A DNA stretch of 64,000 bases. It comes from an uncultured bacterium. GTDB taxonomy: Bacteria; Edwardsbacteria; AC1; EtOH8. Under the pieces are notes generated by a model. It was not told the DNA's origin. It searched no databases and saw only the letters and a list, made by a program, of their open reading frames with translations. The stretch spans positions 124,001 to 188,000 of the forward strand of contig CALMGM010000008.1 of the NCBI GenBank assembly GCA_937863685.1, given 5' to 3'. This document shows, in pieces, positions 40,301 through 56,946 of the stretch (positions within the stretch are counted from its first letter, which is position 1; each line of letters opens with the position of its first letter). The translations under genes and the position numbers were made by a program.

Positions 40301-40326
40301 AATATAATATATGCAATTTACATGCC
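40301..40326 (-). promoter_or_regulatory. Protease promoter element, copy 1
   Basis: On the coding (minus) strand GGCAT-GTA-AATTGCAT (40326-40311), then ATAT, then TATATT (40306-40301), about 48 nt before the ATG. The two GCAT half-sites start 11 bp apart. It matches the elements at 53484-53509 and 56761-56787. Confidence 0.6.
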
Positions 40327-40523
40327 GTTAGAATATTTTTCTTTATTCTAACAATTTACCATCCAATATGTTAAAAAACATTTTTATTCGTCAGACAACA
40401 TTTTTTCTTGATCATATACATAATTAACGCAAATATTACATCAATATTATATTAATCTTATAATGTATTGAATGTTAACATATTATGTTGATGCATTAAT
40501 TGCTGTTGATTTTTTGATATTTA

Positions 40524-40554
40524 AAAATGGCAGGGTATTAATCCCTGCCATTTT
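40524..40554 (-). terminator. Terminator of the 796-residue cargo gene
   Basis: AAAATGGCAGGG (40524-40535) and CCCTGCCATTTT (40543-40554) form a 12-bp stem with a TATTAAT loop, followed by T-rich sequence on the minus strand, 22 nt past the stop. Confidence 0.88.
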
Positions 40555-40576
40555 GTTTGGATATTGGATAATTGTG

Positions 40577-42967
40577 TTATCTTACCTTTACCATTTTCTT
40601 GGTCAGGTTTTGGTCGCCGGTGGTCAGGCGGTAGAGGTAAACTCCGTTGGACACTTTCTTTCCGCTGTGGTCCAGACCGTTCCAGGAAACCTCATGCATA
40701 CCGGCAGGCTGATTCCCGTCGCACAGGGTGGCGACCTCCTGCCCCACTATGTTGTATACCTTCAAAGCCACCTGGGAAGCATTGGGGAGAACATAAGAGA
40801 TGGAAGTGCTGCTGGTGAACGGGTTGGGTCTGGCCTGGTTTAATATGGCGGTTTTACCGTATACCAGCGCCTCCGGCTCGCCTTCCACCTTATAAAAGGC
40901 CGGGATCCCGAACCACCTGAGCACCCTGGCGATGAACTCGGTACGAGTCAGTTTGCCTGGAGTATTGGAGCCCACCGCCTCCAGGGGAGTTGAGGAAAAT
41001 ACGGTTTTATAAACGGCAGTGGAACATCTGATAACGCTGGAACCGCCTATGGTCTTGAACTGAAATACCGATTCAGCGCCGGGTAGCGGGAACATCCGGT
41101 CTATGGATTTGTAGTTCCCGGCCGTTCCGGCGGTCATGATAGCCAGGGTGTCCGGTGTGCCATGGCTTATCGGCAGAGCCACCAGGCCGATAGAGTTGAT
41201 GTTGGCGGTGGCTACATTAGAGACGTCAAAATCGGCCTTAAGATAGCTATTATAGAAAACTGCCGTATCGGTCACATTCTGCCCCAGATTCTTGGAGGAC
41301 AGTAACAGGTTGCCTCCCCGGTCCAGAAATGCCGACAGGCTGTCCCGTTCGATCTGGGTCAGGGTGGTTAGGCTGTCATCACCGGTGAACCAAACCAGCA
41401 CATCGAATTGGCTGAGCGTTGTCAGAACACTGGCCTTGCTGTTGTCCCAGTAGCCGTAGAGCACCCCGGTGGTGTCCATGCAGCTGGTATAATAGTCCCC
41501 ATAGTTATTGGTTGGCAGGGCATCGTTGACCAGAAGTATTTTATACTTGTGATCGCCCACAAAAAACTGCCAGGGGGTCAGCGAGCCTCCGGCCGGAAAA
41601 TATCCGGCGTTCCAGATGGGCAGGCCGGCCTGGTCCAGCGCCCCGTCACGGCCGCTGACATAATACTGGACCATGGTGCCTGGATATTGGGGAGGGATGG
41701 AAGCCCTGTATTCATCGGGATTGCCGGTGGGCGACATGGGAATATAGTTCCAACTGGTATCGCTGGAAGCGAACGGCTTCACCCGGTAATAAAGCCGGAC
41801 CTGGGATATGCCGGAGGTATCTGTCACCAGAGTGTAGACCTGGAACGGGCCGGTGAAAGAAGTGTCCTTCCAGGTGGTGGTATTGGACAATTGGGGCGGG
41901 GTCCAGTCGAAAATCCTGAAGTTGTTGTTGACCCCCGGCGCAGTGTACGGTTGATAGGAATAATTCCCGGTGGTGCCGTCGGTGGCCTTGATATGCCAGA
42001 TCACCGTGACCGGATCGATGACCGGAAGGTTCTGGGCCGGTATGGTGTAATAATAGGTATCGCCGGCCACGCTGTCCCGGGGGAAAGGCACCCAAGCGGT
42101 GGCGTCAATATCGAATACCCACAGGGAGTCGTTGGCAATGGGTCCTTCGCTCTTGAAACTGGTCCACACCGGGTACGGCCCCAGTTGGTCGGTATTGGCG
42201 ATCAGCTGAGTGTTGTATGACCAGGGATCGATGATCCGGAAATGGTTCATGGTGTCGCGCTTGACAGGATATTGTCCCCAGTTCCCCATCTCATCGTAAG
42301 CCACCATGAACCAGTTGACATTGACGGGCGTCAGCGAACCGCCCCCATGCCGGGGGATGCTGTAATAATAATAACCGTCTGCCCCGATGCTGTCCCGGGG
42401 ATAATTGGCGCCGCCGGCGATATCGCTGTAGAGCTCGTCGCTGTTGACCACATTGCCGTAAGCGGTGGTCAGGTTCGTCTTCACCCACAGTGGCCCGGTA
42501 AAAAAGGTATCCTTAAGGGCGCTGACGTTGGTGTATTCGGGCGAGTATACGGTATTGATGAAGCTGTAGTAAGCATTGTTCCCCGGATCTTCGGTGGTGC
42601 CAGTATAAGAAGCGTTATCGGCCCAAACCGAATAGGCTACCTCTACCGGGGTCTCCAGTCCTACCGGAACGGATGGGATGTCAAAATAAAAAGTGTCCCC
42701 CACCTGGGTATATTCCTCGATCCAGTTGTCGTTGGGGTCAAGCCAGCCGGTATACGGCCAAAACCAAGCACCGTTCGGTGGGTTGAAGTTGAAACCCAGC
42801 GCAACATAGCCAATGCCTTCGTCGCATTTTATCACCGTCCTAACGGTGTAGGGTCCGGCATAGCTGGTGTCCGGCCAGAGGGTGGTCAGAGTGATGGTCG
42901 GAGCGGCTGCGTTGGCAGAAACAACAGCCAAAGCCAGAATGGCAGTTAATAATATTAATTTACGCAT
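40577..42967 (-). CDS. Secreted Ig-like repeat/GATase-like protein with T9SS sorting domain
   Basis: 796 residues; signal peptide 1-20. Four copies of a (T)xWxDTSFxGPF-V-T strand motif start at about 29, 149, 256 and 364, each opening an Ig-like domain of about 110 residues. Residues about 474-690 look like a GATase/flavodoxin-like domain (YKILLVNDALP, DVLVWFTGDDSLTTL, LDRGGNLLLSS). The sorting domain ends the protein (ARPNPFTSS, LKVYNIVGQEVATL, VSNGVYLYR, final R). No catalytic motif seen. It starts 13 nt after the stop of the 898-residue cargo gene, so the two form an operon. Confidence 0.82.
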   Translation of the reverse strand: MRKLILLTAILALAVVSANAAAPTITLTTLWPDTSYAGPYTVRTVIKCDEGIGYVALGFNFNPPNGAWFWPYTGWLDPNDNWIEEYTQVGDTFYFDIPSVPVGLETPVEVAYSVWADNASYTGTTEDPGNNAYYSFINTVYSPEYTNVSALKDTFFTGPLWVKTNLTTAYGNVVNSDELYSDIAGGANYPRDSIGADGYYYYSIPRHGGGSLTPVNVNWFMVAYDEMGNWGQYPVKRDTMNHFRIIDPWSYNTQLIANTDQLGPYPVWTSFKSEGPIANDSLWVFDIDATAWVPFPRDSVAGDTYYYTIPAQNLPVIDPVTVIWHIKATDGTTGNYSYQPYTAPGVNNNFRIFDWTPPQLSNTTTWKDTSFTGPFQVYTLVTDTSGISQVRLYYRVKPFASSDTSWNYIPMSPTGNPDEYRASIPPQYPGTMVQYYVSGRDGALDQAGLPIWNAGYFPAGGSLTPWQFFVGDHKYKILLVNDALPTNNYGDYYTSCMDTTGVLYGYWDNSKASVLTTLSQFDVLVWFTGDDSLTTLTQIERDSLSAFLDRGGNLLLSSKNLGQNVTDTAVFYNSYLKADFDVSNVATANINSIGLVALPISHGTPDTLAIMTAGTAGNYKSIDRMFPLPGAESVFQFKTIGGSSVIRCSTAVYKTVFSSTPLEAVGSNTPGKLTRTEFIARVLRWFGIPAFYKVEGEPEALVYGKTAILNQARPNPFTSSTSISYVLPNASQVALKVYNIVGQEVATLCDGNQPAGMHEVSWNGLDHSGKKVSNGVYLYRLTTGDQNLTKKMVKVR

Positions 42968-42980
42968 CTATTGCCTCTCC

Positions 42981-45677
42981 TTATTTAACCAGGTTTAATC
43001 GTTTGGTCTGGGAAAATTTCTGGCCGTTTCTGCCGGCGGCTTCCATCCGATAAAAGTAGATGCCATTGGCCACCGCCCGACCGTTCTGGTCCGAGCCGTT
43101 CCAGGTGATGCTGTGGTAGCCGGGATTCAGATCTTCGTCGGCCAGGGTCCTCACCTGTTGCCCGGTAATGTTATAAACGACCAGCCTGACCCGGCTCTGG
43201 GCCGGCAGGGCAAACCGGATATTGGTGGACTGGTTGAAGGGGTTGGGGTCATTCTGCCCCAGGCTGAAATATTTGGGAGCGGCGGTAATGGGATCTCCCT
43301 CCACTCCGGTCTTCCATGAAGTCACCTGCAGGTAGAACCAGCTGGACAATGCGCTCTCATTGGCCGGGATCTTATCGTCAAAGGCCGTGACCGCGTAATG
43401 ATAGATATCGCCGGAAGCAATGGCCTTGTCCACAAAGGTGGTCTCCGGTGCGGCGACTGTCCCGATCTTGACCCAGGACGGAAGCCCGGTCTGCAGGGCT
43501 CGATAGACGTTGTACCCGACCAGGTCGGATTCGCTGTTGGCCCGCCAGGTGCAGACCACGCTGTCGTAATCCTGGACCGCTGCCAGCCCGACGGGAACCG
43601 CCGGGGGCATATATTCCGGAGTCCCCGGCAGCAGCCACTGGATGATCCGGGAGGCCAGGGTGTCGCGCTTTTGCTGCAACGAGACGGCCTCGAACGGGAA
43701 GGAAGTGTAGACCACTTGATAGCTTCCCGAAACGCCATCCCAATATCTCATGGCGATACAGCTTCCGTCATCGGCGGTCATAAAGCCGACCGCGTTGCTG
43801 TTCGCTGGATCCGGCGTCAGGCTGTAGGAATTGGCCGGCGAAGTCCAGAAATATCCTCCTCCGTTGAGGGGCTCGTAAAGCAAACTGTCCGAAAGACCGT
43901 CGCTGATGGGGTCGCTGCCGACGCCAAAGCCTTGGTATGTGGGAGAGTTGAACCATCCGCTGTCCGGCGCGATATGAAGATAATCGGACCAGATGTTGGG
44001 ATGAACTGTGGTGTCGGGATTGCCTGATCCCATAAATGTCTGCCCGCTCATCCACATCTTGCCGCCGTTATCAAGGTATGATCTGATATTGATCTCGTCA
44101 AGAATTGTCAGTGCTTTATAGGCGGCGCCGAGCCGGCCATCATAGTTGGAACCGAAATTCCAGACGACCAGCGGGAACTGCTCCAGATAGCCGGGAGGCA
44201 TGACTTTGTTGGAGCCGATAGTAGTCAGGCTGTAGCGATATCCCAGGTTTGCCAGCGATGCTTCCATGTATTTGGTCCAGGAGTCGTTCTTTAGATCCAC
44301 CGCATTGCCGTCGTTATCCACCAGCAGAACGGTGTTGACCCCGGGCAATGGTTCGCGGGTCTTGCCGGTGATAATGAAATCATCGACGTACAGGCCCTCG
44401 CCGTACAGGGTGTCTCCGTCAGAGCTGAAGCCGATCCTGACCTTGATGACCTTTCCGATGTAATTGTACAGGTCCAAGACCCCGTTGGTGGCGGAATGGG
44501 TGGTCCAGTCCTTGGTGGCATCCAAATAAACATAATCGGTGATGCCCGTCCAGGATTTCCCGCTGTCCACAGACACATCGACCACCCAGTCATCCAAAAC
44601 CGACTCCGGCGGGTTGGTCCCGTCATCGGTAACATCAGCCCAGATGGCAAAATCCAAAAGACAGGGCTGGGTATTCTGGACCGGCCCCAGGTCTATAAAG
44701 GGAGAAACTATGGCATCCGAGTGCCCCCAGGAGTATTTTTTGGTTATTTCGTCCCCGCAATACCAGGAACGAGAGGGACTCTTGGCCCGGTAGGTGGTCT
44801 GGTGCCAGTAATATACCGGGGTTTTCGATCCGGTGGTCCATCCGATATTGCCCAGCTCCGCATCGTCAAGGAAGATGTTCCCCTTCGTTCCGCCAGCGCT
44901 CATGGTATCGATGGTGATATTATCCATATACCAGGCGCCGTGGTATGGCCCGCCATCCTGGTCGGACGTCAACGGGTCGCTGGCCACTGAGAATCGTAAT
45001 TTTAAAACATTGCCCTTATATGGGGAAAGATCGAAAGCGACCTGCTGCCATGTATCGTTGGTGCCGCCCCATCCGGGGATCTTTATGGAATCAGGGTACA
45101 TCCCTGTATATTTCCAGGCATAGGAATCTATCAGGTTATATGCGGCCAATGCGCCGCCTTCGGAAAAAGCCGTATCGGGATACAATATAAACCAGCTGCT
45201 TCCGCCGTCTATGGATCCCCAAAGGTTTACGCAATCCCAGTCTCCGCCTGCCGGGGGCTCAACGTTATAATAATGGTAGAATTTCAATTGGACCGAATCG
45301 GATGCGATCGAAGTCAGATCGAAATCGGGAGAGAATAGCATTTGCACCCAACCGGTGCCGTAGCCCGGTGAGGTCTTCCATGTTCCGGCAAATTCATCGG
45401 TGCCGCACCACCAGTGATGTCCGGAATATGCACCAATGGGGGAATATGTATCTATATGCCAGTAAGGTTTCTGCACTGCCATATCCATACTATCCCACTT
45501 TAAGGTATCACTCTCAAAGTTGTCAAAGAAAACCGTATCCACCGTCGCTTTGGTGGACAAATATTCAGGTTTTGGCAACACCTTCGGTTTGGGCCTTGGT
45601 TTGGCAAAAAGATTCGCCGAAACGCCCAACAAAAGCATCAAGCCGATTGCTAACCATAATTTTTGCTTCATTTTCAA
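42981..45677 (-). CDS. Secreted protein with two M6-type beta-sandwich domains, GATase-like and T9SS sorting domain
   Basis: 898 residues; signal peptide about 1-25, then a Lys/Pro-rich linker. Two copies of an immune-inhibitor-A C-terminal-like beta-sandwich (MAM-like) occur at about 48-260 (DNFESDTLKWD, WQQVAFDLSPYKG, WYMDNITID) and about 265-440 (DDAELGNIGWTTGS, LYVDDFIITG). A GATase-like domain (about 448-700; TVLLVDNDGNA, LVVWNFGSNYD, YLDNGGKMWMSGQ), an Fn3 domain and a type A sorting domain (DPNPFNQST, LVVYNITGQQV, VANGIYFYR) complete it. No HExxH motif, so not a protease itself. First gene of a two-gene operon. Confidence 0.85.
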   Translation of the reverse strand: MKMKQKLWLAIGLMLLLGVSANLFAKPRPKPKVLPKPEYLSTKATVDTVFFDNFESDTLKWDSMDMAVQKPYWHIDTYSPIGAYSGHHWWCGTDEFAGTWKTSPGYGTGWVQMLFSPDFDLTSIASDSVQLKFYHYYNVEPPAGGDWDCVNLWGSIDGGSSWFILYPDTAFSEGGALAAYNLIDSYAWKYTGMYPDSIKIPGWGGTNDTWQQVAFDLSPYKGNVLKLRFSVASDPLTSDQDGGPYHGAWYMDNITIDTMSAGGTKGNIFLDDAELGNIGWTTGSKTPVYYWHQTTYRAKSPSRSWYCGDEITKKYSWGHSDAIVSPFIDLGPVQNTQPCLLDFAIWADVTDDGTNPPESVLDDWVVDVSVDSGKSWTGITDYVYLDATKDWTTHSATNGVLDLYNYIGKVIKVRIGFSSDGDTLYGEGLYVDDFIITGKTREPLPGVNTVLLVDNDGNAVDLKNDSWTKYMEASLANLGYRYSLTTIGSNKVMPPGYLEQFPLVVWNFGSNYDGRLGAAYKALTILDEINIRSYLDNGGKMWMSGQTFMGSGNPDTTVHPNIWSDYLHIAPDSGWFNSPTYQGFGVGSDPISDGLSDSLLYEPLNGGGYFWTSPANSYSLTPDPANSNAVGFMTADDGSCIAMRYWDGVSGSYQVVYTSFPFEAVSLQQKRDTLASRIIQWLLPGTPEYMPPAVPVGLAAVQDYDSVVCTWRANSESDLVGYNVYRALQTGLPSWVKIGTVAAPETTFVDKAIASGDIYHYAVTAFDDKIPANESALSSWFYLQVTSWKTGVEGDPITAAPKYFSLGQNDPNPFNQSTNIRFALPAQSRVRLVVYNITGQQVRTLADEDLNPGYHSITWNGSDQNGRAVANGIYFYRMEAAGRNGQKFSQTKRLNLVK

Positions 45678-45710
45678 GATCTCCCTAATTAATTGATACT
45701 TTAATATTTT

Positions 45711-45739
45711 ATTTTAGAATATTTTGCTCTAAATGTCAA
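45711..45739 (-). promoter_or_regulatory. Promoter of the two-gene cargo operon
   Basis: TTGACA (45739-45734) and TAAAAT (45716-45711) with a 17-nt spacer on the minus strand, 34 nt before the ATG. Confidence 0.85.
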
Positions 45740-45759
45740 GGATTTAATTGTTATTTTTA

Positions 45760-47658
45760 TCATTGCGACCGGGATTCCCCGCTATAGGGCGTACATTCAA
45801 GGGCCCGTTGATATTCAGCCCGGGACTGTGATAGCCTCCCCTGCATTTTATACAATACTGCCAGGTTGTAATGTGCCTGGGCCATCCTGGGATTTATGTT
45901 CAAAGCTTTCAGGTATTCCCCTTCTGCCAGTGCTGCATTTCCCTGCCTTTGATAGATCACGCCCAAATTGGTATGTATGTCGGCATTATCGGGCCGCAGC
46001 TTCAAGGCCCTATCATACTCGGCCATCGCCTTCCGGAAATCCCCTCGTTCCTGATATAAAGCCCCCAGGCTGACATAGGACTTTATGCTGCGCGGATCAA
46101 GCGAAATCTCCTTCCTGTAATACCCCTCTGCCTCGGCAGACTTGCCTTGCCTTTCACAGACCTGGCCGAGGTTATAATTGGCAGACGGGAAATCGGCACA
46201 TAAGCTCACAGTATTCTTCAGCATGGCTTCAGCTTTGTCCAATGGTCCTTTCAGCATATAAAGCGAGCCCAGATTGAACATGGCCCTATAAAAGTTCGGG
46301 GAAAGGATCAAGGCCTGCAAATACTGCTGCTCGGCCTTAGCCCACTCATCTCTTTTAGAATAGGATACTCCCAAGGAGTTATGGGCCATAGCAGAATTTG
46401 GCGATAATATGACCGCCTGTTGCCAGCAGGCCAGGTCATCCCGGAAAACACGGCCGTACGACATGGTGCCCAAAGCAAATACGATCAGCAAAATGATCAG
46501 GACAGCACTACCGATGATTTTGCTCCGCCCGATACTATCCCACAGCTTCAGTTCCGTGAGCATCAGCCCGAATCCTATCAGCGGCAGATATAGCCGGTGG
46601 TCCATAAAGGCATTCATCTCCGAATTGTAAACGACCGTGGGTATTATGAATAAAATAAACCAAATCCCCCCAAAAACAAAACGCTTCCGATTCTTTATGC
46701 CCGTTATAGACATAATCATGAACGCCAAAACGGCCGCTATTCCATAGGCCGGTTTTATATCCCTGATATCCGGGGCTATCGTAAGATTGATCGGGAAGAC
46801 GATCTTGCCAAAATACGAGATAAAGCCCTTAAAGATGACTCCCGGGTGATTGAATGCCAGGTCCTTAAAGGATGAACCCCCGATCCCCGATTGCCTGACA
46901 ATATACCATAAGGTCAAAATCCCTATCCAACCGGCAGCTAATGATAAGATTCGGCGGCTCAGCAATTTCTCAGAGGTGTATAATAGAAAATACGATGCAC
47001 AAACCAGCGGCAGAACGATAGCTGTTTCCTTGGCAAACAAGGCCCCCGCCATCATGAGTAAATGCAGCAGGGCCCAAAACCATCGCCGATCACGGAAGTA
47101 TAGCACCAAGCTGCCCAAAGAACCGACCGTGAACAAGGCCAGCAGTGAATCGTTTCTGCCGGGGATCCACGCCACCGCCTGGGTCAGTACCGGATGAACC
47201 GCAAACAGAGCGGTAAAAAAGAACGCCCGGGCGGGCCCTTGCCCCAATAACGTCAGCATCCATAACAACAAAAAGCAAGCCGCCAAATGTATCAGGATAT
47301 TGCTCAAATGATAAGATGCCAGGATTTCCCCGCCCCATTGGGCGTCCATCATAAAAGACACGGTCAACAGCGGCCGGTAATACTGCATTCCCCCTTTCGG
47401 CTGATGGAATACGTCTCGCTGAAACGCTTGTCCGATATTGCTTATATCGCGATTGAACTGGTACCCTTTGACCACCAGGGCCGAATCGTCAAGATTTGTC
47501 AAACCAAAGGAAAGGGTTTGGGCATACACTATTGCCACCAGTAAAGCGATCCAGGCATAAGGCCTCCAAGAACCAAGCAGCCGTGGAGTCCCACCCGGCG
47601 GTACGCTAAAATGACCGTCAGCCGTTGTCTTGATTTTTTTTCTTTTTTTATTTGTCAT
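45760..47658 (-). CDS. TMTC-like polytopic membrane protein with TPR repeats
   Basis: 632 residues: a charged N-terminus, then many membrane segments (about 30-410), then about seven TPR repeats (about 425-625; AMAHNSLGVSYSKRDEW, YRAMFNLGSLYML and so on). Motifs shared with TMTC/GT-C proteins are LTNLDDSALV in the first loop, FAVHPVLTQAVAWIPGRND, and DHRLYLP late in the membrane part. Eukaryotic TMTCs are O-mannosyltransferases, and the acidic first-loop residue is a GT-C feature, so a glycosyltransferase role at the periplasmic face is plausible. Located between T9SS cargo genes, so its target might be those proteins; this is inference. Confidence 0.75.
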   Translation of the reverse strand: MTNKKRKKIKTTADGHFSVPPGGTPRLLGSWRPYAWIALLVAIVYAQTLSFGLTNLDDSALVVKGYQFNRDISNIGQAFQRDVFHQPKGGMQYYRPLLTVSFMMDAQWGGEILASYHLSNILIHLAACFLLLWMLTLLGQGPARAFFFTALFAVHPVLTQAVAWIPGRNDSLLALFTVGSLGSLVLYFRDRRWFWALLHLLMMAGALFAKETAIVLPLVCASYFLLYTSEKLLSRRILSLAAGWIGILTLWYIVRQSGIGGSSFKDLAFNHPGVIFKGFISYFGKIVFPINLTIAPDIRDIKPAYGIAAVLAFMIMSITGIKNRKRFVFGGIWFILFIIPTVVYNSEMNAFMDHRLYLPLIGFGLMLTELKLWDSIGRSKIIGSAVLIILLIVFALGTMSYGRVFRDDLACWQQAVILSPNSAMAHNSLGVSYSKRDEWAKAEQQYLQALILSPNFYRAMFNLGSLYMLKGPLDKAEAMLKNTVSLCADFPSANYNLGQVCERQGKSAEAEGYYRKEISLDPRSIKSYVSLGALYQERGDFRKAMAEYDRALKLRPDNADIHTNLGVIYQRQGNAALAEGEYLKALNINPRMAQAHYNLAVLYKMQGRLSQSRAEYQRALECTPYSGESRSQ

Positions 47659-47780
47659 GCGGCATCATCTGTAAACCATTGGATCTTTTGATTTACTTGT
47701 AAAAACCGTGATCGCGATCATCTCTTACCGGAACTTAAACTTTGGATCACTTCTTTTAGCCAGCTATATCCATATTGTTC

Positions 47781-47811
47781 ATTATACCATAAATGACTTT
47801 TAAAAAGACAA
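47781..47811 (-). promoter_or_regulatory. Promoter of the TMTC-like gene (45760-47658)
   Basis: TATAAT (47786-47781) with TTGTCT (47811-47806) 19 nt upstream, on the minus strand, about 120 nt before the ATG. The -35 is degenerate and overlaps the terminator-like hairpin of the M14 gene. Confidence 0.5.
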
Positions 47812-47831
47812 TCCGATTTAAAAACCGGACT
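47800..47831 (-). terminator. Weak terminator after the M14 gene
   Basis: On the minus strand AGTCCG (47831-47826) pairs with CGGATT (47815-47810), one G-T pair included, and TTTTT follows shortly. It is 20 nt past the M14 stop codon. Confidence 0.45.
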
Positions 47832-47850
47832 GCCTCCTGCAAGCTGAACC

Positions 47851-50460
47851 TTACCTGATGATGGTCACCTTCTGGGTGGCCGAATAATCCCCGGCGGTCA
47901 TCTTGTACAGGTATACCCCGTTGGCTGCGTTCCGCCCGCGAGCATCCTTGCCGTCCCACGGGATGCTGTAATATCCCGCCGGCTGGATCCCGTCCACCAG
48001 CGTCCGCACCTCCTGTCCCAGAACATTGTATATCTTGATCGAGGTCCGCCCGCTATTCCTCAAGGCGTACCTGATGGTGACATCAGACGCCGCCGGATTG
48101 GGATAGGCCTTCCCAAGCTGGCAGTTCAGCGGCAGGTCCTTCCCCCCGAACTCCACCAGCATCGGCCCGTAATAGGTCCTGATTTCGTTGACATCCACCT
48201 CGGCCAGACGGTAGTAATATATCCCCGTCTCCAGGTTGGATATATCGCTGTAACTATACTGATGCGGCTCGTTGGTCGTCAGGTGCCCCTCCACCGTACC
48301 GATCAGCTTAAAATCGCCCTCCTCGCTGATGGACCGCTCTATCTCCCAGCGGGAGCAGTCCTTCTCGCTCTCGGTCCGCCAGCGGACCTCAACTGTGTTG
48401 TTCGTAAAAAGAGCCGTTAATGAGCTTAACTCGACAGCAGAAGGATAGACCAAAACCTTTCTCAGTTGACTCCAGTCCCCCCAGCTTCTTTTACTGTTAT
48501 ATCCGCGCACCCGGTAATAATAGGTTTCGCCCACCGTCCTTTGACCGACATCGTAACTGGTGACAGGGATGGAATTCGACAGGGAGGCAGCCGTTGAGTA
48601 GGACGCCACCGGCTTGATATCGTCAATGTAGATTCCGTCGGTGGCGGTCAGACCGTCCCCTACCAGGCGTATCCTGAAAAATACCGATTTATTGAAATAC
48701 TTCGCCGAATCGATGGCAAAAGCCCTTTTGGTCCAGCTGAGAACGTTGCCGTATAATTTGCCCAGCAGGTCCCACTGCCGGCCGTCGGGAGAGATCTCCA
48801 CCCAGATCCGGTCGAAAGCGGTCATGGCCTGGTAGCTGTAAAAACTGAAGGAATCGCTGGCCGAGCTGACCGGATAGGGATTGGTGGTGGTGACGCTGGC
48901 AATGTTGTACTGGTTGCTGACCGCGCTGTAGTAGCTTCGGCTGCCGGAATACATCCTGACCGTCGAGGGAGAAAAACCGTTCAGGGCTATATTGGGATTG
49001 GCCGCTGGTCCCACTGTATCGGTGGAGGCGTTAAGACCGATCAGTTCCTGAACTTCGTAGGCGGTGGGACTGGAGGCCGGGTTTAACAGATTCCAGGTAA
49101 TCCATACATCATTGGTGGCCTTGCCCTTCAGGGGGAAATAGACCGGATTGATGGCCGGTGGCAGCACCGGCGGCGGCGAGGTGGTGCTGACCAGGCTGTC
49201 AGTGCGCAGAGCCAGGTACATGAATCCTTTGAGGGTCTGGGGACAGACCGAATCTATATGGCTGGGCGGGATGTAGAAAGCGGTGTCCGCCTCCACGCAG
49301 TAAGGAAAGATCACCCGGCCCAGCTGGGTCAGGCCGTAGCCGTACATCCAGCCGTCGGAATCCCCGGTGGTCTCGTACAGGGCCGAGCCCTGCTGGGGCG
49401 TGTAGCCCAGGGGGCTGCGGTATCTTTTGATGCGGGAGGCCATCTGCCGCCCGAAGTACTGCAACTGGGTACTGTCCGGCGCTCGTTTGATCAGGGAATC
49501 AACATAGCCCAGGGGCCAAAGTACCAGTTCGCCGTATGTGTGATAGGAGATCGACAGCACGATGTTATGATCTTTGACCAGCTTCATCATGGCCTGCTGC
49601 TCCGGCTCTCCGCTGGGCGCCACGCCGTAGAATACATCGTTGGACGAATCCGGGCTGGTATAGCTGTTGATCGTGCTGCCCCAGGCCCCCAGGATATCCC
49701 CATCCATGGAGCCGTCGTAACCCCGGTTGAGGTCGGAACCGAAAACGGTGGGGCTGTTCACCCGACGGTTCTTACGCCACATCAGGCCTGCCCCGTAGGT
49801 GCCCCCGTTGTCATAAACAAACCCGTCGGGGTTGACCAGCGGCGCGATGTATATCTCCCGAGTTTTTATGAGATTGGACAGCGAATCGGTCCCGGCGGGG
49901 TTGTAGTTATCGGTCAGATAATTGGCGATATAAAGGCAGATCTCCGGGGTCATCCACTCGCGGGCGTGATGGTCCCCCATTATCAGAATGCCGTGGCGCG
50001 AATTATCGTCGACCGTGGGATTGTCCGAGATCTTCAGGCACCAGACCTTGCCCCCTTGGGCCGCCACCGCCAAGGTATCCAGTTTGATTATTGACGGATG
50101 GTCGACGGCTATCTGCTTGAGTTCGGTCCGGATCCCGTCATATGTATGGTAGGCCGCCTTGCCGCTGTAGGAAGCGACATCCCGGGGGGAGGTCATCAGC
50201 ACCTTGTAGGCCAGCCCTGCCCCGGAAATCCGCGATAGCTGGTCGGGATCGATCACTATATCAGCGTATTCCCCGGGCCGGTAGGAGGCCACGTCTAGGC
50301 CGTAGCCGATATGGGCCAGCCGTTCGGCGTTCTCCCTGACGGAAATATCAACCCGGATAAGCATCTTGTTGGCACTCTCCTGGCAAAGTATAACTGAAGA
50401 TGATACTACCAAAGAAGCCAGAAGGAAAAACAGAACTGCCGTGATTTTATGCTTATGCAT
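47851..50460 (-). CDS. Secreted M14 zinc carboxypeptidase with T9SS sorting domain
   Basis: 869 residues from the ATG at 50460 (a longer reading adds 29 residues with no signal peptide in front). Signal peptide about 1-27. M14 domain about 100-430: zinc ligands H165 and E168 (DHHAREW), H307 (SYHTYGEL), N245/R246 (SDLNRG) and the catalytic Glu E390 (YCVEAD). Downstream are a jelly-roll/Fn3-like region, then the WRTESEKDC Fn3-like module and a type A sorting domain (AYPNPAAS, IKIYNVLGQEVRTL, AANGVYLYK). The last 547 bp are nearly identical in DNA to the end of the following S8 gene. A peptide-trimming exo-protease at the surface is likely. Confidence 0.92.
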   Translation of the reverse strand: MHKHKITAVLFFLLASLVVSSSVILCQESANKMLIRVDISVRENAERLAHIGYGLDVASYRPGEYADIVIDPDQLSRISGAGLAYKVLMTSPRDVASYSGKAAYHTYDGIRTELKQIAVDHPSIIKLDTLAVAAQGGKVWCLKISDNPTVDDNSRHGILIMGDHHAREWMTPEICLYIANYLTDNYNPAGTDSLSNLIKTREIYIAPLVNPDGFVYDNGGTYGAGLMWRKNRRVNSPTVFGSDLNRGYDGSMDGDILGAWGSTINSYTSPDSSNDVFYGVAPSGEPEQQAMMKLVKDHNIVLSISYHTYGELVLWPLGYVDSLIKRAPDSTQLQYFGRQMASRIKRYRSPLGYTPQQGSALYETTGDSDGWMYGYGLTQLGRVIFPYCVEADTAFYIPPSHIDSVCPQTLKGFMYLALRTDSLVSTTSPPPVLPPAINPVYFPLKGKATNDVWITWNLLNPASSPTAYEVQELIGLNASTDTVGPAANPNIALNGFSPSTVRMYSGSRSYYSAVSNQYNIASVTTTNPYPVSSASDSFSFYSYQAMTAFDRIWVEISPDGRQWDLLGKLYGNVLSWTKRAFAIDSAKYFNKSVFFRIRLVGDGLTATDGIYIDDIKPVASYSTAASLSNSIPVTSYDVGQRTVGETYYYRVRGYNSKRSWGDWSQLRKVLVYPSAVELSSLTALFTNNTVEVRWRTESEKDCSRWEIERSISEEGDFKLIGTVEGHLTTNEPHQYSYSDISNLETGIYYYRLAEVDVNEIRTYYGPMLVEFGGKDLPLNCQLGKAYPNPAASDVTIRYALRNSGRTSIKIYNVLGQEVRTLVDGIQPAGYYSIPWDGKDARGRNAANGVYLYKMTAGDYSATQKVTIIR
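47856..48402. repeat. Near-identical sorting-domain cassette, copy 1
   Basis: 547 bp covering the Fn3-like module and T9SS sorting domain of the M14 gene. Compared base by base with 50561-51107 (offset 2705) I count only three differences, at 48316, 48337 and 48355, all silent. Identity stops abruptly at 48402/48403. One further difference at 47855 changes the penultimate-stop residue R to K. Confidence 0.95.
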
Positions 50461-50508
50461 ATATCCCTTTAGAATATGTTTGGCTGGATTATAGCATATA
50501 TCAGCATA

Positions 50509-50545
50509 GAACAACAGCCCGATTTTTAAAATCGGGCTGTTGTTC
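50509..50545 (-). terminator. Terminator of the 960-residue S8 gene
   Basis: GAACAACAGCCCGATTTT (50509-50526) and AAAATCGGGCTGTTGTTC (50528-50545) form an 18-bp perfect stem around a single T, 10 nt past the stop codon. It also sits just upstream of the M14 promoter, whose TATAAT (50493-50488) is seen on the minus strand. Confidence 0.88.
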
Positions 50546-50555
50546 ACAAATTATT

Positions 50556-53438
50556 TTACTTGATGATGGTCACCTTCTGGGTGGCCGAATAATCCCCGGC
50601 GGTCATCTTGTACAGGTATACCCCGTTGGCTGCGTTCCGCCCGCGAGCATCCTTGCCGTCCCACGGGATGCTGTAATATCCCGCCGGCTGGATCCCGTCC
50701 ACCAGCGTCCGCACCTCCTGTCCCAGAACATTGTATATCTTGATCGAGGTCCGCCCGCTATTCCTCAAGGCGTACCTGATGGTGACATCAGACGCCGCCG
50801 GATTGGGATAGGCCTTCCCAAGCTGGCAGTTCAGCGGCAGGTCCTTCCCCCCGAACTCCACCAGCATCGGCCCGTAATAGGTCCTGATTTCGTTGACATC
50901 CACCTCGGCCAGACGGTAGTAATATATCCCCGTCTCCAGGTTGGATATATCGCTGTAACTATACTGATGCGGCTCGTTGGTCGTCAGGTGCCCCTCCACC
51001 GTACCGATCAGCTTAAAATCTCCCTCCTCGCTGATGGACCGTTCTATCTCCCAGCGGGAACAGTCCTTCTCGCTCTCGGTCCGCCAGCGGACCTCAACTG
51101 TGTTGTTGGCCGCCGTTGCGCTGAAGGAGGTCATCTCCACCGCCTGGGGAGGAATGGCAAAGCCGGAGGAATTGGCGATGTCGCCGCTGACGGTCAGCAC
51201 GTAGGGCTGCGGCCCGTTGTTGATGGCCCGGGCAGTGACAGTGACGGTATAGGTCACGCTGGCCTTGGTGGCCGAGGCCGGCAGCCAGACCACCTCCTCG
51301 CAGTTCACCGAATCGGGGCTGCCGCCGGTTATGGAAAAGCCGTTGCTGGCCGGCTGGCCGAAAACATTGCCCAGATAGGTATTGCCGCCTCCGGTGACGG
51401 TCAGATCAAGGTCGTTGACGGTGATATCTGAGGCTCCCGGCGTTCCGGGATAATCGACATAGACCAAGACGAACTTGAGAGGCTGACTTCCCGAGGTCCC
51501 GGTGGTGACGGTGAAGGTCTTGCTCTGTCCGGAGGAAGAAAAGCCTGCCTTGGCATCCTCCAGGGCGGTCCGCTTGGCGTCGCCGGGAAAATACAGGGCG
51601 TCGTCCAGCACCACCCCGCCCCAGCCCTGGCCCTGCGAGGGAACATTCTGGGTCCCGGTCTGTCCTATGGCGTCGATGCTATAGGCCCCGTTGAAGTTCC
51701 TGGTGGCCAGCATCATCAGTGATTTAATCAAAGCCCCGGATGGATTGGCAATGGCGTTGCCCGCCACCTTGGTGCCGGTGGGATACCACCCCTCGGTGAG
51801 GTACTGCCGGACCAGAGCCCCCATTCCGGCCATGGTGGGCGTGGCCATCGAGGTTCCGCCCATGGTTATGATGCCGGAATTATTGGTGGTCAGGCTGCCG
51901 TCGGAATCCACCGACCAGATGTACCATCCGCCGCATCCCAGCAGGGTGGGACGCATCAGCCCCTCGTCGGTCGGCCCGTGGGAGGAGAATTCGGCCACGT
52001 CCAACAGTTCGTTGCGGGTATTGGTGCCGTTTACCTGCCAGGTGGTGACGGCCGAGCCGAATCCCGATTCGCTGGCCCCTACGCAGACGATGTTCTTGCC
52101 GGTGGCCGGGCTGTTCACCCGGTCATTGGAGGTGTTATCGTTGCCGGCCGAGCGGAACATAAGTAGATCCTTATGGTTCCAGGCCGCCTGATCTATCTGC
52201 TGGGCGTTGATTGTATAGGCGGAAGATCCCCCGGCGCTCTGCCCCCAGGAAGAAGAGGTGATCCTGGCACCGGCATTGTACTCCCATATGTATATATGGC
52301 TGTAATCAGCCGGAAGTTTTAAGGCATCGCTGGCCGCTCCGATATCAGTGAATGCTATCCGGCACTTGGGAGCCATGCCCATGGCCGGGGGAAGGGAACT
52401 CTGGGTGGTCAGCCAGCCCAAGCTGTCGGCGCCGATGGACCCGCTGGTATGGCTGCCATGACCGCTTGAGGTCAGATCAAAAGAATCAGCAATGATATTA
52501 TAGGCCACAATTTTCCGATGAGCGTTGGTTCCGAAGACCAAGGTATCGCGCCCGGTGGCTGAAACCGTGTCCTTGTCGTAGACGGGCTTCAAGCCTGCTC
52601 CATCCCGGAAATAAATGTTATCCCAATCCATGCCGGTATCATCATCGCCCACTATCATGTTCTGGCCGTATAATCCTTTTTTATAGATGGGCATGACAGC
52701 CGAGTCGCTGGCGGTGGAGATGGTCAGGGCCGATTTCCATGAATCGGCAGCATAGACCATTTTCAGGGTATCCAGGCTCTGGTTGATCCAGCGGCTCCAG
52801 GCATTGTGTAGCACCGGCTGGTAATAACGTTCCACCCAGAACACCTCGGGATAGTTGGCGATCTCCTTGGCGATCTCTATTGACTGATCCGATGGTATGG
52901 AGATGCGGATATAATTTTCACCATGCCGGTCATAACCAATGTCTTTTTTTGACAGCAACTTCTCCAAAACGGCTTTAGCATCAGATTCTTCAAAGGTTGC
53001 TATCTGAAGCATTATCTTTCCCGGTTCGTCAGGGGCATAAAACCCCGGAGCATTCAACAGATCCGGGTTTATCCGGAAAGCCGGCTGGTAATATCCTACG
53101 AATTGGACAAACGGCAGTTTCTCGATTTTTCCCTTAACATCGCCGTTCATTTTTACCACCTGTCCGTAATTAGGTATGTAATCGTTGTGTATCTTTCCCC
53201 CGGCCCTTCTGACCTCGCTTCTCCAGGCATCATTCACCGGCCCAATGAACTGAACGATATACCAGTCGGCCTCGGTGGATTTTGGGGCTCTCTCCAGGCC
53301 CAATTTGGCATAGGAGGGCATGCCATTGGCGGTTGAAAAATGCCCGATCTTGAATTTCAGAACCGTCGGATCGGAAGCAGTAGCCCATGAAGTCAGCAAC
53401 AACAGCGTTATTAAAACAAGAAAAAACTTTTTATGCAT
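50556..53438 (-). CDS. Secreted S8 subtilase with T9SS sorting domain (960 aa)
   Basis: Signal peptide 1-21. A propeptide-like region (about 30-210; DWYIVQFIGPVNDAWR, IPNYGQVVKMN) is shared with the 1673-residue S8 protein. Catalytic domain about 255-600: D267 (DDDTG), H327 (SGHGSHTSG), oxyanion N433 (SAGND) and S530 (GGTSMATP). A PPC-like/Fn3 region and the WRTESEKDC Fn3-like module precede the type A sorting domain, ending in K. The last 547 bp are nearly identical to the end of the M14 gene. The leader carries the protease promoter element at 53484-53509. Confidence 0.92.
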   Translation of the reverse strand: MHKKFFLVLITLLLLTSWATASDPTVLKFKIGHFSTANGMPSYAKLGLERAPKSTEADWYIVQFIGPVNDAWRSEVRRAGGKIHNDYIPNYGQVVKMNGDVKGKIEKLPFVQFVGYYQPAFRINPDLLNAPGFYAPDEPGKIMLQIATFEESDAKAVLEKLLSKKDIGYDRHGENYIRISIPSDQSIEIAKEIANYPEVFWVERYYQPVLHNAWSRWINQSLDTLKMVYAADSWKSALTISTASDSAVMPIYKKGLYGQNMIVGDDDTGMDWDNIYFRDGAGLKPVYDKDTVSATGRDTLVFGTNAHRKIVAYNIIADSFDLTSSGHGSHTSGSIGADSLGWLTTQSSLPPAMGMAPKCRIAFTDIGAASDALKLPADYSHIYIWEYNAGARITSSSWGQSAGGSSAYTINAQQIDQAAWNHKDLLMFRSAGNDNTSNDRVNSPATGKNIVCVGASESGFGSAVTTWQVNGTNTRNELLDVAEFSSHGPTDEGLMRPTLLGCGGWYIWSVDSDGSLTTNNSGIITMGGTSMATPTMAGMGALVRQYLTEGWYPTGTKVAGNAIANPSGALIKSLMMLATRNFNGAYSIDAIGQTGTQNVPSQGQGWGGVVLDDALYFPGDAKRTALEDAKAGFSSSGQSKTFTVTTGTSGSQPLKFVLVYVDYPGTPGASDITVNDLDLTVTGGGNTYLGNVFGQPASNGFSITGGSPDSVNCEEVVWLPASATKASVTYTVTVTARAINNGPQPYVLTVSGDIANSSGFAIPPQAVEMTSFSATAANNTVEVRWRTESEKDCSRWEIERSISEEGDFKLIGTVEGHLTTNEPHQYSYSDISNLETGIYYYRLAEVDVNEIRTYYGPMLVEFGGKDLPLNCQLGKAYPNPAASDVTIRYALRNSGRTSIKIYNVLGQEVRTLVDGIQPAGYYSIPWDGKDARGRNAANGVYLYKMTAGDYSATQKVTIIK
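50561..51107. repeat. Near-identical sorting-domain cassette, copy 2
   Basis: Second copy of the 547-bp cassette, in the S8 gene; see 47856-48402. The differences (51021, 51042 and 51060) are silent, so the two proteins share identical residues through the cassette. Confidence 0.95.
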
Positions 53439-53483
53439 TTATAACCCCTTAGTTTATTTTGGTTTTGGTATATTTTTCTTTTG

Positions 53484-53509
53484 TTTATAAATAATGCAAT
53501 TGCTATGCC
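53484..53509 (-). promoter_or_regulatory. Protease promoter element, copy 2
   Basis: Coding strand GGCAT-AGC-AATTGCAT (53509-53494), then TATT, then TATAAA (53489-53484), about 46 nt before the ATG. GCAT half-sites 11 bp apart, as in the copies at 40301-40326 and 56761-56787. Confidence 0.6.
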
Positions 53510-53771
53510 ACGATTAGGCATCTCTAAATTGTTGAATTGCAAAATATTAAAACCATTACTAGATTATATAATGATATTTGTTGATGCATTTATTACATAA
53601 ACGGCAATTATTGCGGTATGTTTATAATTTAATATAATTTTTATTGCTTGCTCAATTAAGTTATTTTCTTAAATTATCGCTAAATACATATCATCAATGG
53701 GGATCATAAACGTTATATCGCATTGCTCCCTGCTGAATAACATATCAACAGCAGGAAGGATAGAGATAAAC

Positions 53772-53802
53772 ATTAAAGGCGCTCCAACGGAGCGCCTTTA
53801 AT
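53772..53802 (-). terminator. Terminator of the C25 protease gene
   Basis: ATTAAAGGCGCTCC (53772-53785) and GGAGCGCCTTTAAT (53789-53802) form a 14-bp perfect stem with an AAC loop, 18 nt past the stop codon; the minus-strand flank is AT-rich. Confidence 0.85.
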
Positions 53803-53819
53803 AAATACCCAAGATGCTT

Positions 53820-56732
53820 TTACTTCAGCAGCATCAATTTTTTGGTGGCGCTGAACTCGCCGGATACCAGTTTGTAAAAATACACCCCCTTGGCCGCTGC
53901 CCGGCCGCTGTTGTCCCGGCCGTCCCAGGGAACGGAAAAACTGCCGGCATTCTTTCTGTCATTGACCAGGGCTTTGACCTCGGCCCCCATGATATTGTAT
54001 ATCTTCAGGCTGGTCTGTCCCGGCTCTTTCAGTGAATACCTGATGATCACCCCTCCGGTGGTGGGATTGGGGAAACTCTGCTCCAGCTTGTAATCGTAAG
54101 AAGCTAACGGGCCCGAGTAGTTTACATTGATCGGACCGAAAACGGTTTCCTTTCCGGAAATATCGACCTCGATCAGTTTGTAATAATACACGCCTTCCGA
54201 CGGGATATTTGCATCGGTATACTGATAGTTGCTGACTTCGTAGACGGTACCGTTGCCCTCGACCGTACCGATCTCGGCAAACGATCCGTCGGGCTGCGTT
54301 GAGCGCTCTATCCTCCAAGATTGGCAGTTGACCTCGCTGGCCGTCTGCCAGGCCAATATGATCCCCCCGGCCGATGGGGCACAGGTAAAACTGGCCATAC
54401 TGACCGCTCCGGGTAGACTAACGGTGGAGCTGAAATTGCCCCGGACGAAATTGGACTTGGTGGCCGTTACCGTTAACTGGCCGGCATTGGCGGGGTTGAT
54501 GGTAAAAGAAACATTTCCGCTGGCATCCGTCAGCTTGGAGGTGCAGATATCGGTGGCCTTGGTCGAGCCATCCTTGGCCGCCACGTACATATACAGTCCC
54601 ACCAAGGCGCCCTGGACGTTGGTGGAAGTGTTCTTTTTCTTGACGTTGACGTTGAAGGTTTGAGACCCGGTATTTATGTTGGCATTATAGGTCAGGGCAA
54701 AGGTGTCCGGGATCTGGGAACAGAAGGTCATAAAGGGATCGCCGAATACGTGGAAAAGGTGGCAGGTGAATTCTTGGTAATCGATAGGCAGACCAACAGC
54801 AATTGTATAGGTCTGGGTCATCAGGTGCCATTTGCCGGAGACCATGGCGAAGGCCGGACGTAGATCCTCTGTATAGCGGTCGTAGGTCTGGCCGGAGCCG
54901 GCGTTGGGCACGTCCCAGTTGTTGCTAGTATTGAAAGTGGGCCACATTCCGTCCATGATGCCCATTATCAGGGCGTCGTTGACGAAGGAGTACGAGACCT
55001 CGGTGGCGCACATCACCCCCAGGGCCCCGTAACGGCTGCGGTGGAACTGCTCGGAAAAGACCCCATTGGTGGTGGTGGCGTTCTGGAAAGCCCCGGTCTG
55101 GCAGTTCATGGAAAAGACGAACGGATAAAGGTTATTGGTCAGGCTGGGCATGTTGGTGTTGGTAAAGGCCGGCTCGCCCCAACCGGTATACGCCCCATGA
55201 TCGCGGTGCATTATCATGAAGGTGCCGTTGTTGACGGCGGTAACCACCCCGGCCGCGGTGCCGGTGTTCCAGACCATGCCGGAGGGAACTGTGGCCGCTA
55301 TATAATTCTCGCCGGCCGGGCCGTAGGCCGCCACCAGGGCGCTGGGATCGGTGGTGGACCAGGGATCGCCTCCGGCCGGGCCGCTGGCATCAACCAACGC
55401 ATACTGCTGCTGGGTGGTCTTGCCTAATTTATTTTTCAAGAAGCCCCGGACGATCTCGGAACACATCCCGAACCAGCGTTCATCCTGCCAGCCGGCCGCC
55501 GAAAGCGGCAGGTTGTAAAAGGTGGCGCTGGATGGCGGCGAGGTCTCGTAGTTGATGATCTTCTTGACCATGGTGGAACAGTGGGCCGCGGTCTGGGCCG
55601 GCATCCGGGCGAACACTAATTCCGGGGCCCCGCCGTTGCTCCAGGTGGAGGCGGCGTTGGTGATATTTATATCGGCAAAGACGTTGTCCGAGACATACTG
55701 GGGGAAACTCCCGTCCGGATGGAGCATGTATTTGGACGAGGTTACCCCGTAGGCCTTGGTGGAAGTGGCCAGGTCGGACATCATCAGCACCGCCAGCGGT
55801 TTGGTGGTCCAGGTGTTGTAGGCATTGTCGATGAACATTTCCACTGAATCCGGATTATTGGTCGTCTCCAGCGTGGTGAAGATGCCGGTCTTGATTCCCT
55901 GTTTCTTGCGGAAAGTTTTAAGGGTCTCGGCCCAAGCTATAAAGGCGGCGTCATTGGGGACGATGATGATGTATTCAAACTGCCCGGCCTCCTTGGAAGG
56001 ATCGGCCAAGGCCATCTGTTCGTGGATCTCGGAATACTTGGTGGGCTGCATGGAACTGTAGTTGATGATGTTCTGCTGGAGGATCCGCTCGAACATCGGG
56101 TGACGGTACAGGTCGTCGCCAAACTCGCCCTTGCCGCCCTCAAATGTCACCTCGACCTCCATGTCCCTTCTGACAATAAGCTCTTTGGTGACCGGATTAT
56201 ATCTGAAAGGAGCCAGCGACAGGATGAACACATCCACCCCCCTCATCTTCTGGACCGGGGACTTCATCACGAAATTGCTGGGGAAAAATTCGTTCCTGGA
56301 ATAGACCTCGGAATTTTTAGTCAGGGGCTTGAACACCTTGTCCTGCTCGGTGGGAATCTCCATGCCCGGAGCGATGTCAATGTTCTGGAATCTTTCCTCG
56401 CGGTAGGACAGTATCTTCACCCGGGGAACGGCCCCGTTGGGAACGGCCACATAATTGCTGATAACCGGCAGATCGGGATACCCGGCGCCGATGGGCAGGA
56501 TCGATCCTTCGGTGACCACCGCCTTGGCCTTGGTTCCTTCAACATCCTTCTCCTCAAAATTGAAGTTGTTGACGGAGTATACCAGGTTCAGGCTTCCCTT
56601 GGTTTGATTTTTAACAGTGATCCCCCGCTTGGACCAGGAATCCTTATAGGTGATGGTCTGGGTATTGGCAGCCCATGAAATCCCGCAAATAGAAACCAAC
56701 AAACCAGTTATCAATAACTTATATTTTCCCAT
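53820..56732 (-). CDS. Secreted gingipain-like C25 protease with T9SS sorting domain
   Basis: 970 residues from the ATG at 56732, chosen for the GGAGAGGG ribosome binding site and signal peptide (1-21); a longer reading adds 15 residues. Propeptide region about 22-250. C25 domain about 250-690 with H512 (HRDHG) and C544 (MNCQTGAF), matching the gingipain His-Cys pair. A CheW/Ig-like region, the WQTASEVNC Fn3-like module and a type A sorting domain (SFPNPTTG, LKIYNIMGAEV, AAKGVYFYK, final K) follow. It differs from the PorU-like protein in size and N-region and looks like a secreted protease. Preceded by the promoter element at 56761-56787. Confidence 0.9.
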   Translation of the reverse strand: MGKYKLLITGLLVSICGISWAANTQTITYKDSWSKRGITVKNQTKGSLNLVYSVNNFNFEEKDVEGTKAKAVVTEGSILPIGAGYPDLPVISNYVAVPNGAVPRVKILSYREERFQNIDIAPGMEIPTEQDKVFKPLTKNSEVYSRNEFFPSNFVMKSPVQKMRGVDVFILSLAPFRYNPVTKELIVRRDMEVEVTFEGGKGEFGDDLYRHPMFERILQQNIINYSSMQPTKYSEIHEQMALADPSKEAGQFEYIIIVPNDAAFIAWAETLKTFRKKQGIKTGIFTTLETTNNPDSVEMFIDNAYNTWTTKPLAVLMMSDLATSTKAYGVTSSKYMLHPDGSFPQYVSDNVFADINITNAASTWSNGGAPELVFARMPAQTAAHCSTMVKKIINYETSPPSSATFYNLPLSAAGWQDERWFGMCSEIVRGFLKNKLGKTTQQQYALVDASGPAGGDPWSTTDPSALVAAYGPAGENYIAATVPSGMVWNTGTAAGVVTAVNNGTFMIMHRDHGAYTGWGEPAFTNTNMPSLTNNLYPFVFSMNCQTGAFQNATTTNGVFSEQFHRSRYGALGVMCATEVSYSFVNDALIMGIMDGMWPTFNTSNNWDVPNAGSGQTYDRYTEDLRPAFAMVSGKWHLMTQTYTIAVGLPIDYQEFTCHLFHVFGDPFMTFCSQIPDTFALTYNANINTGSQTFNVNVKKKNTSTNVQGALVGLYMYVAAKDGSTKATDICTSKLTDASGNVSFTINPANAGQLTVTATKSNFVRGNFSSTVSLPGAVSMASFTCAPSAGGIILAWQTASEVNCQSWRIERSTQPDGSFAEIGTVEGNGTVYEVSNYQYTDANIPSEGVYYYKLIEVDISGKETVFGPINVNYSGPLASYDYKLEQSFPNPTTGGVIIRYSLKEPGQTSLKIYNIMGAEVKALVNDRKNAGSFSVPWDGRDNSGRAAAKGVYFYKLVSGEFSATKKLMLLK

Positions 56733-56760
56733 CGTCCCTCTCCTTAAAATTTTGATATTT

Positions 56761-56787
56761 ATTATAATATTATGCAATTATTATACC
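56761..56787 (-). promoter_or_regulatory. Protease promoter element, copy 3
   Basis: Coding strand GGTAT-AAT-AATTGCAT (56787-56772), then AATAT, then TATAAT (56766-56761), about 29 nt before the ATG. The first half-site is GTAT instead of GCAT; the spacing is 11 bp, as in the other two copies. Confidence 0.6.
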
Positions 56788-56879: not shown

Positions 56880-56936
56880 TGCAATAATACTTAACTAATA
56901 TACTTATTTACAATAAGTTAAGTATAATGCAATAAT
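56880..56936. repeat. Inverted and direct repeats in the C25 leader
   Basis: ATACTTAACT (56887-56896) and AGTTAAGTAT (56916-56925) are perfect inverted arms around 19 AT-rich bases, flanked by two direct copies of TGCAATAAT (56880-56888, 56928-56936). It lies between the TMTC-like stop at 56947 and the C25 start. A regulator-binding site or weak terminator is possible. Confidence 0.45.
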
Positions 56937-56946
56937 TGCTTTTTTG

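Follow-up and report, generated by a model that had tools for sequence, protein, structure and literature searches.

A candidate sigma-54-dependent regulon of secreted proteases in an uncultured Edwardsbacteria bacterium

Three secreted protease genes share an upstream element

The stretch of DNA analysed here, referred to as the window, comprises 64,000 nucleotides from an uncultured Edwardsbacteria bacterium (assembly GCA_937863685.1, contig CALMGM010000008.1, positions 124,001 to 188,000) and carries three secreted protease genes, two of the S8 family (S8-1 and S8-2) and one of the C25 family, each preceded by a common promoter element whose identity and control are the subject of this work (Table 1). 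A sequence-only reading of the window had noted the element as blocks on the minus, coding strand, and these are present at the positions and distances from the ATG codons that it gave: GGCATGTAAATTGCAT-ATAT-TATATT at 40326-40301 (site 1), GGCATAGCAATTGCAT-TATT-TATAAA at 53509-53484 (site 2) and GGTATAATAATTGCAT-AATAT-TATAAT at 56787-56761 (site 3). The core GGYATNNNAATTGCAT has three exact matches in the window, every other match carrying two mismatches; with TATAWW appended and up to three mismatches allowed, three matches are found versus 0.12 expected in shuffled sequence. The three sites are not chance occurrences, and the proposal that the three genes share one regulatory element is borne out.

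Relatives came from a comparison set of ten genomes in four genera of one family, a phylum-level search having given the same number; G000 denotes this genome, G001–G009 its relatives, C a contig and L an extracted protein or locus. Genome-wide scans yielded pattern matches together with the stretches around them, and genes were called by simple open reading frame (ORF) rules. Among named relatives, the one closest to the C25 protein belongs to a Candidatus Edwardsbacteria metagenome-assembled genome (83% identity), the next to UBP2_UBA4780 (73%), and we found no gene-regulation study for this uncultured phylum. C-terminal sorting domains are what suggests a link to type IX secretion in this genome. 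Each of the ten genomes has ~60–86 matches to the sorting-tail region of one protease, so many genes in this family appear to be given to type IX-type exported proteins. The M14 carboxypeptidase gene is, from its spacing, probably co-transcribed with S8-2.

Table 1. Protease genes, predicted promoters and candidate activator sites. Positions are those of the window unless a contig is named.
Feature	Sequence	Position	Strand	Remarks
Secreted S8 protease gene 1 (S8-1), Peptidase_S8		35232..40253	-	1673 aa; type IX-type sorting tail
Predicted sigma-54 -24/-12 promoter, S8-1	GGCATGTAAATTGCAT (GG-N10-GC reading CGGCATGTAAATTGCAT)	40311..40326	-	C of -12 GC 60 nt before ATG 40253
Second, weaker palindrome copy, S8-1	GTAATATTTGC	40429..40439		113 nt upstream of -24 GG
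Candidate upstream activator site, S8-1	GCAATTAATGC	40493..40503		177 nt upstream of -24 GG
M14 carboxypeptidase gene		47851-50547		8 nt after S8-2
Secreted S8 protease gene 2 (S8-2), Peptidase_S8		50556..53438	-	960 aa; type IX-type C-terminal sorting domain
Predicted sigma-54 -24/-12 promoter, S8-2	TGGCATAGCAATTGCAT	53494..53509	-	58 nt before ATG 53438; retained in G001, G002, G003
Second palindrome copy, S8-2	GTAATAAATGC	53586..53596		87 nt upstream of GG; GCAATTAATGC in G001, G003
Candidate upstream activator site, S8-2	GCAATAATTGC (or GCAAATATTGC)	53604..53614		105 nt upstream of -24 GG
Secreted C25 (gingipain-family) protease gene, Peptidase_C25		53820..56732	-	C25 propeptide and sorting tail
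Predicted sigma-54 -24/-12 promoter, C25	TGGTATAATAATTGCAT	56772..56787	-	42 nt before ATG 56732; retained in G001, G002, G003
Candidate upstream activator site, C25	GCAATTATTGC	56929..56939		152 nt upstream of -24 GG
M6 protease gene (M6a), C-terminal part		61427..64000	-	runs past window end
Predicted sigma-54 promoter, M6a	TGGCATATAATTTGCAT	C8:189504-189520		~1.5 kb outside window; palindrome ~C8:189687-189697

The element reads as a sigma-54 promoter

By its sequence, the shared element is a standard sigma-54 (RpoN) -24/-12 promoter of the form (T)GGYATN5TTGCAT, with GG and GC separated by ten bases. All three window sites hold this spacing exactly and carry TTGC at -12, and sigma-54 dependence of the three is, on these grounds, near certain. 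When the window was scored with a generic sigma-54 consensus on both strands (128,000 positions), the three sites came out at the top, all of them intergenic, on the coding strand and 42–60 nt before an ATG; the sole other position of equal score lies within a gene. The pattern GGYAYN5TTGCW occurs four times in the window versus 0.98 expected. The published consensus is TGGCACN5-7TTGCT (PMC12316311). The sites resemble known sigma-54 promoters in the GG-N10-GC spacing, TTGCA/T at -12, GGCAY at -24, the distance to the start codon and the presence of RpoN and activators in the same genome; they differ in that the -24 half within the genus is often GGCAT or GGTAT rather than GGCAC, and in a strongly AT-rich spacer and leader.

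The sequence-only reading had instead proposed 11-bp direct repeats of PhoB/OmpR type in place of a -35 element, with TATAWW as the -10 box of a sigma-70-type promoter. At all three window sites the GGYAT and TGCAT half-sites indeed start 11 bp apart with TATAWW 4–5 nt after, and the S8-2 orthologs within the genus retain TATAAA/TATATA. The half-sites, however, correspond to the -24 (TGGCAY) and -12 (TTGCAW) halves of a sigma-54 promoter, and it is the likeness of TGGCAT to TTGCAT that made them appear as repeats one helical turn apart. Orthologs separate the two descriptions. The S8-1 promoter retains GG and TGC in G001, G002, G003, G005, G006, G007 and G008, and in the last four of these the -24 half is GGCAC (GGCAC...TTGCA); an M6 gene of G009 has GGCAC...ATGCA. 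The repeat is thereby broken in G005–G009 and the fit to sigma-54 improved, while GG and TGC stay. Across 23 protease promoters, collected with patterns requiring GG and TGC so that their invariance is partly built in, GG, the A at +3 and TGC are invariant and the spacer and downstream A/T vary; the GG and GC columns reach 2.8 bits versus ~0.5 bit at most for the TATAWW region, which is not conserved at fixed spacing in S8-1, C25 and M6 orthologs. Independently of pattern choice, orthologous leaders aligned over ~325 nt keep the GG...TGC block while most other sequence drifts. The same type of site also precedes pilin genes beside sigma-54 activator genes. This ortholog drift led us to reject the direct repeat plus -10 model, and a PhoB/OmpR-type regulator acting at these sites is very improbable. 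What endures of the suggested dedicated sigma factor or regulator is the combination, a sigma factor plus a regulator, which is the best reading.

Two further matches were set aside. A perfect GGYAYN5TTGCW match at 29065-29079 (-), before a second C25 gene (24225-29006), overlaps the final codons of the gene upstream, as does a similar match at C8:85125. Both appear to encode the sorting-tail stretch G-I-Y-F-A and are probably coding coincidences; sorting tails can, it seems, yield false sigma-54 matches in this genome.

A palindrome lies upstream of the protease promoters

Alignment of orthologous leaders of four protease genes brought out a second element, the palindrome GCAAWWWWTGC, 86–178 nt before the -24 element. 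This palindrome, a candidate activator site, is likely to be where the regulator acts. Before M6a it reads GCAAATTATGC or GCAATTTATGC, at -178 from the GG. Two-copy layouts are seen at S8-1 (-177/-113), at M6a of G001 (-177/-112) and at S8-2 (-105/-87), and the weaker S8-1 copy recurs in G001 and G002 (GTAAATTTTGC, GTAAAATTTGC) and in G003 (GTAATGTTTGC). Such a layout would fit binding by an activator oligomer, but isolated weak copies often arise by chance. Against shuffled leaders, P was 0.09 (S8-1), 0.009 (S8-2), 0.0015 (C25) and 0.18 (M6), values that are partly circular because the motif came from the same leaders. Upstream of the S8-1 palindrome, a hairpin (AAATGGCAGGG...CCCTGCCATTTTT, ~40515-40560, minus strand) is conserved in four species and resembles a terminator for the gene before it; on that reading S8-1 would begin its own transcript.

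The exact form GCAAWWWTTGC has ten copies in the genome (20 strand counts versus 6 in the control), six within genes and four intergenic. Every intergenic copy has a GG-N10-GC site 105–171 nt downstream in the right orientation, and two of these four loci are new, having played no part in deriving the palindrome. One is a second M6 protease gene (M6b) with a sorting tail (GGCATAAAATATGCAT at C4:86695), kept with its palindrome in G002; the other is a rubrerythrin-like gene (GGCCTAAAATATGCAT at C5:271937). The latter (G000:C5:271937-272058, gene start 174 nt downstream) is an odd partner for a protease regulon. Searched as one pattern in the ten genomes, palindrome, gap and sigma-54 site gave 8 + 11 = 19 matches versus 0 + 1 for the reversed control. 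Exactly six fall in this genome, before S8-1, S8-2, C25, M6a, M6b and the rubrerythrin-like gene. All but one of the 19 are intergenic (the exception, G008:C39, is inside a gene), and they mostly stand before secreted proteases; the G005 and G009 matches are at contig ends, and that of G004 precedes a secreted protein resembling, by eye, a metallo-beta-lactamase fold. Sigma-54 site and palindrome together thus define a probable secreted-protease regulon.

Leaders of 74–78% A+T could in principle resemble one another by chance, and two of the genes, both S8 proteases, could have inherited their leader from one duplicated ancestor. The genes, however, come from three unrelated peptidase families, their leaders align at the two elements only, and the excess of composite matches over the control already refutes such an origin, which we regard as exceedingly improbable.

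RpoN and its candidate activators

The genome encodes one complete RpoN (L001, 466 aa) with activator-, core- and DNA-binding domains (AID, CBD and DBD) and the RpoN box ARRTVAKYRE, a close match to the sigma-54 of solved holoenzyme structures. Eight sigma-54 activators (L002–L009) were found, all AAA+ proteins with a GAFTGA or GSFTGA loop. None adjoins the protease genes. The nearest activator gene, C8:208868-210382, is ~20 kb off and keeps its linkage to the protease cluster in both G000 and G001, and L005 (GAF, AAA+ and Fis-type helix-turn-helix) is separated from the M6a promoter by ~20 kb in this genome and by ~17 kb in G001; this proximity is a weak hint. Gene neighbourhood does not single out an activator, the linked one also occurring in genomes without the palindrome. 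The activators beside pilin or L019 promoters serve promoters that lack the palindrome, which favours one of L003, L005, L007, L008 and L009. Self-control was not apparent: none of seven activator genes tested is preceded by GCAAWWWWTGC with at most one mismatch.

In one activator, L094:4750-6924 (contig C9, minus strand), a single protein carries a PilS-like membrane domain, PAS, an AAA+ activator domain and a Fis-type helix-turn-helix; its gene adjoins a type IV pilin gene preceded by a sigma-54 promoter. It is apparently a PilS/PilR pair condensed to one protein, in which no kinase domain was matched. The next gene, L094:3608-4687 (359 aa, weak HAMP match), has a pilin-type N-methylation motif in mid-protein (residues 187–210) rather than at the start, and its own sigma-54-like site, GGCACGATAACTGCAT.

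Several observations weigh against a sigma-54 protease regulon built on this palindrome. Strict promoter matches for S8-2 and C25 were found within the genus only, and no strict sigma-54 site was found before the more distant C25 relatives L042–L044; S8-1 and M6 promoters, by comparison, are confirmed in other genera too. The sequence-only reading held that the sites lack TTGACA, unlike other promoters here, yet weak sigma-70-like hexamers do occur near them in the AT-rich leaders, making a second promoter possible. The palindrome was derived from the promoters it would control, leaving only the extra genes as independent cases; a one-mismatch copy alone is no rarer than chance in two of the four protease promoters (those with P 0.09 and 0.18); and in the g3 genomes S8-1 keeps its sigma-54 site without the palindrome.

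This last point, like the distance of the closest activator gene, would also suit an arrangement in which the promoters are of sigma-54 type but each gene answers to its own activator, the palindrome being the site of a repressor or a global regulator. The palindrome nevertheless stands 86–178 nt from the sigma-54 site in one orientation, as activator sites do, and pilin-type sigma-54 promoters go without it, as expected if they use other activators. In Desulfovibrio, the distance from activator site to promoter is in most cases no more than 100 nt (PMC4641369). We consider a repressor or global regulator at the palindrome unlikely, and a single dedicated activator at that site remains our preferred reading.

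Sigma-54 sites elsewhere in the family

The looser pattern GGYAYN5TTGCW gave 27 matches in this genome versus 13 in the control, and 280 versus 152 summed over the ten genomes, which makes roughly half of the raw matches noise. Genome-wide, the more specific pattern GGYMTN5WTGCAW returned 20 matches versus 6 in the control; 12 are intergenic, seven of these standing 42–63 nt before genes for exported proteins. Not every secreted gene belongs to the sigma-54 set, as a good sigma-70-like site (TTGACA-17-TAAAAT) stands before the neighbouring gene 42981-45677.

Type IV pilin genes are a classical sigma-54 setting, and here too promoters of this type stand before pilin genes that adjoin activator genes (L004, L006, L036 and relatives); the palindrome was not found at these pilin-type promoters. 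Next to activator L002, another site stands before an operon encoding a 123-aa protein and a sorting-tail protein of 1212 aa, and G001, G002 and G003 have a match at the corresponding place beside this activator. The 123-aa protein (L095:5019-5390), first in the operon, belongs to no known Pfam family; G001 has a close relative of it behind a promoter of the same type. In relatives, sigma-54 sites also precede PilT-like and endonuclease I genes.

Two sites stand apart. The orphan GGTATCCATTTTGCAT (G000:C1:24201-24216, plus strand; L096 ~4202) is flanked by an NrdR-like gene, from which it points away, and by the 3' end of a sorting-tail gene; the 300 nt downstream contain no ORF. The site and the sequence upstream of it are near-identical in G002, the same 15-mer is present in G003, and the site could make a small RNA. 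GGTATAAATTTTGCT (G000:C6:24420-24434, minus strand, and G001:C9:51679) precedes a gene for a 300-aa protein; together with the next ~130 nt (a hairpin and a T run) it is near-identical in the two genomes, its upstream sequence differing, and the region could be a small RNA or a leader.

A model for coordinated protease expression

From promoter anatomy, conservation, the presence of RpoN and activators and the association of palindrome with promoter, all read from sequence, we infer binding, activation, an activator and its signal. Sigma-54 holoenzyme and one dedicated enhancer-binding protein very probably co-activate the secreted proteases. RNA polymerase with sigma-54 would bind the GG at -24 and the GC at -12 and wait as a closed complex. 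The enhancer-binding protein, an AAA+ protein with a GAFTGA-type loop and a Fis-type helix-turn-helix, would bind GCAAWWWWTGC 86–178 nt upstream, loop over and spend ATP to open the promoter. Transcription would start ~12 nt after the GC, in the A/T stretch read earlier as TATAWW, leaving a leader of ~30–48 nt. The circuit would turn on two S8, one C25 and two M6 proteases together, with the M14 carboxypeptidase probably added by read-through, plus one rubrerythrin-like gene. For this Edwardsbacteria group as a whole, we lean towards the view that one activator, acting through GCAAWWWWTGC, governs secreted proteases of unrelated families as a dedicated regulon and places type IX-like cargo under sigma-54 control.

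A speculative new promoter type is thereby replaced by a precise, testable one, and the combination of sigma-54 site and palindrome serves as a regulatory code that picks out co-regulated secreted proteases in an uncultured phylum. If the model is correct, external protein digestion would be an all-or-none switch needing both activator and ATP, and would come under sigma-54 as the type IV pili of this group do. Sigma-54 has been proposed to control the bacterial exterior (PMC3162934); the model would fit that proposal and extend it to secreted proteases.

Comparison with known systems

Among the best-matching papers of a non-exhaustive search, none joins type IX secretion with sigma-54. In Porphyromonas gingivalis, an ECF-type sigma-70-family factor, SigP, acts with PorX/PorY, and SigP and PorX control secretion-machinery genes (PMC4800418, PMC8265659); a type IX-type system and C25-family proteases are common to both cases, whereas here, unlike in that Bacteroidota system, the predicted sigma-54 targets are the genes for the cargo proteases. 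PilR/PilS-type control of pilin is matched in this genome by the sigma-54 promoters before pilin genes adjoining activator genes, from which the protease promoters differ in having no neighbouring activator gene and in bearing a palindrome that the pilin promoters lack. The closest parallel in layout comes from Desulfovibrio vulgaris, where regulons of sigma-54 and enhancer-binding proteins with upstream palindromes have been reconstructed (PMC4641369): there too a conserved inverted repeat upstream of the sigma-54 promoter is common to several operons, but the targets here are secreted proteases. Judged against these precedents, the system appears to be of a known kind and its regulon new.

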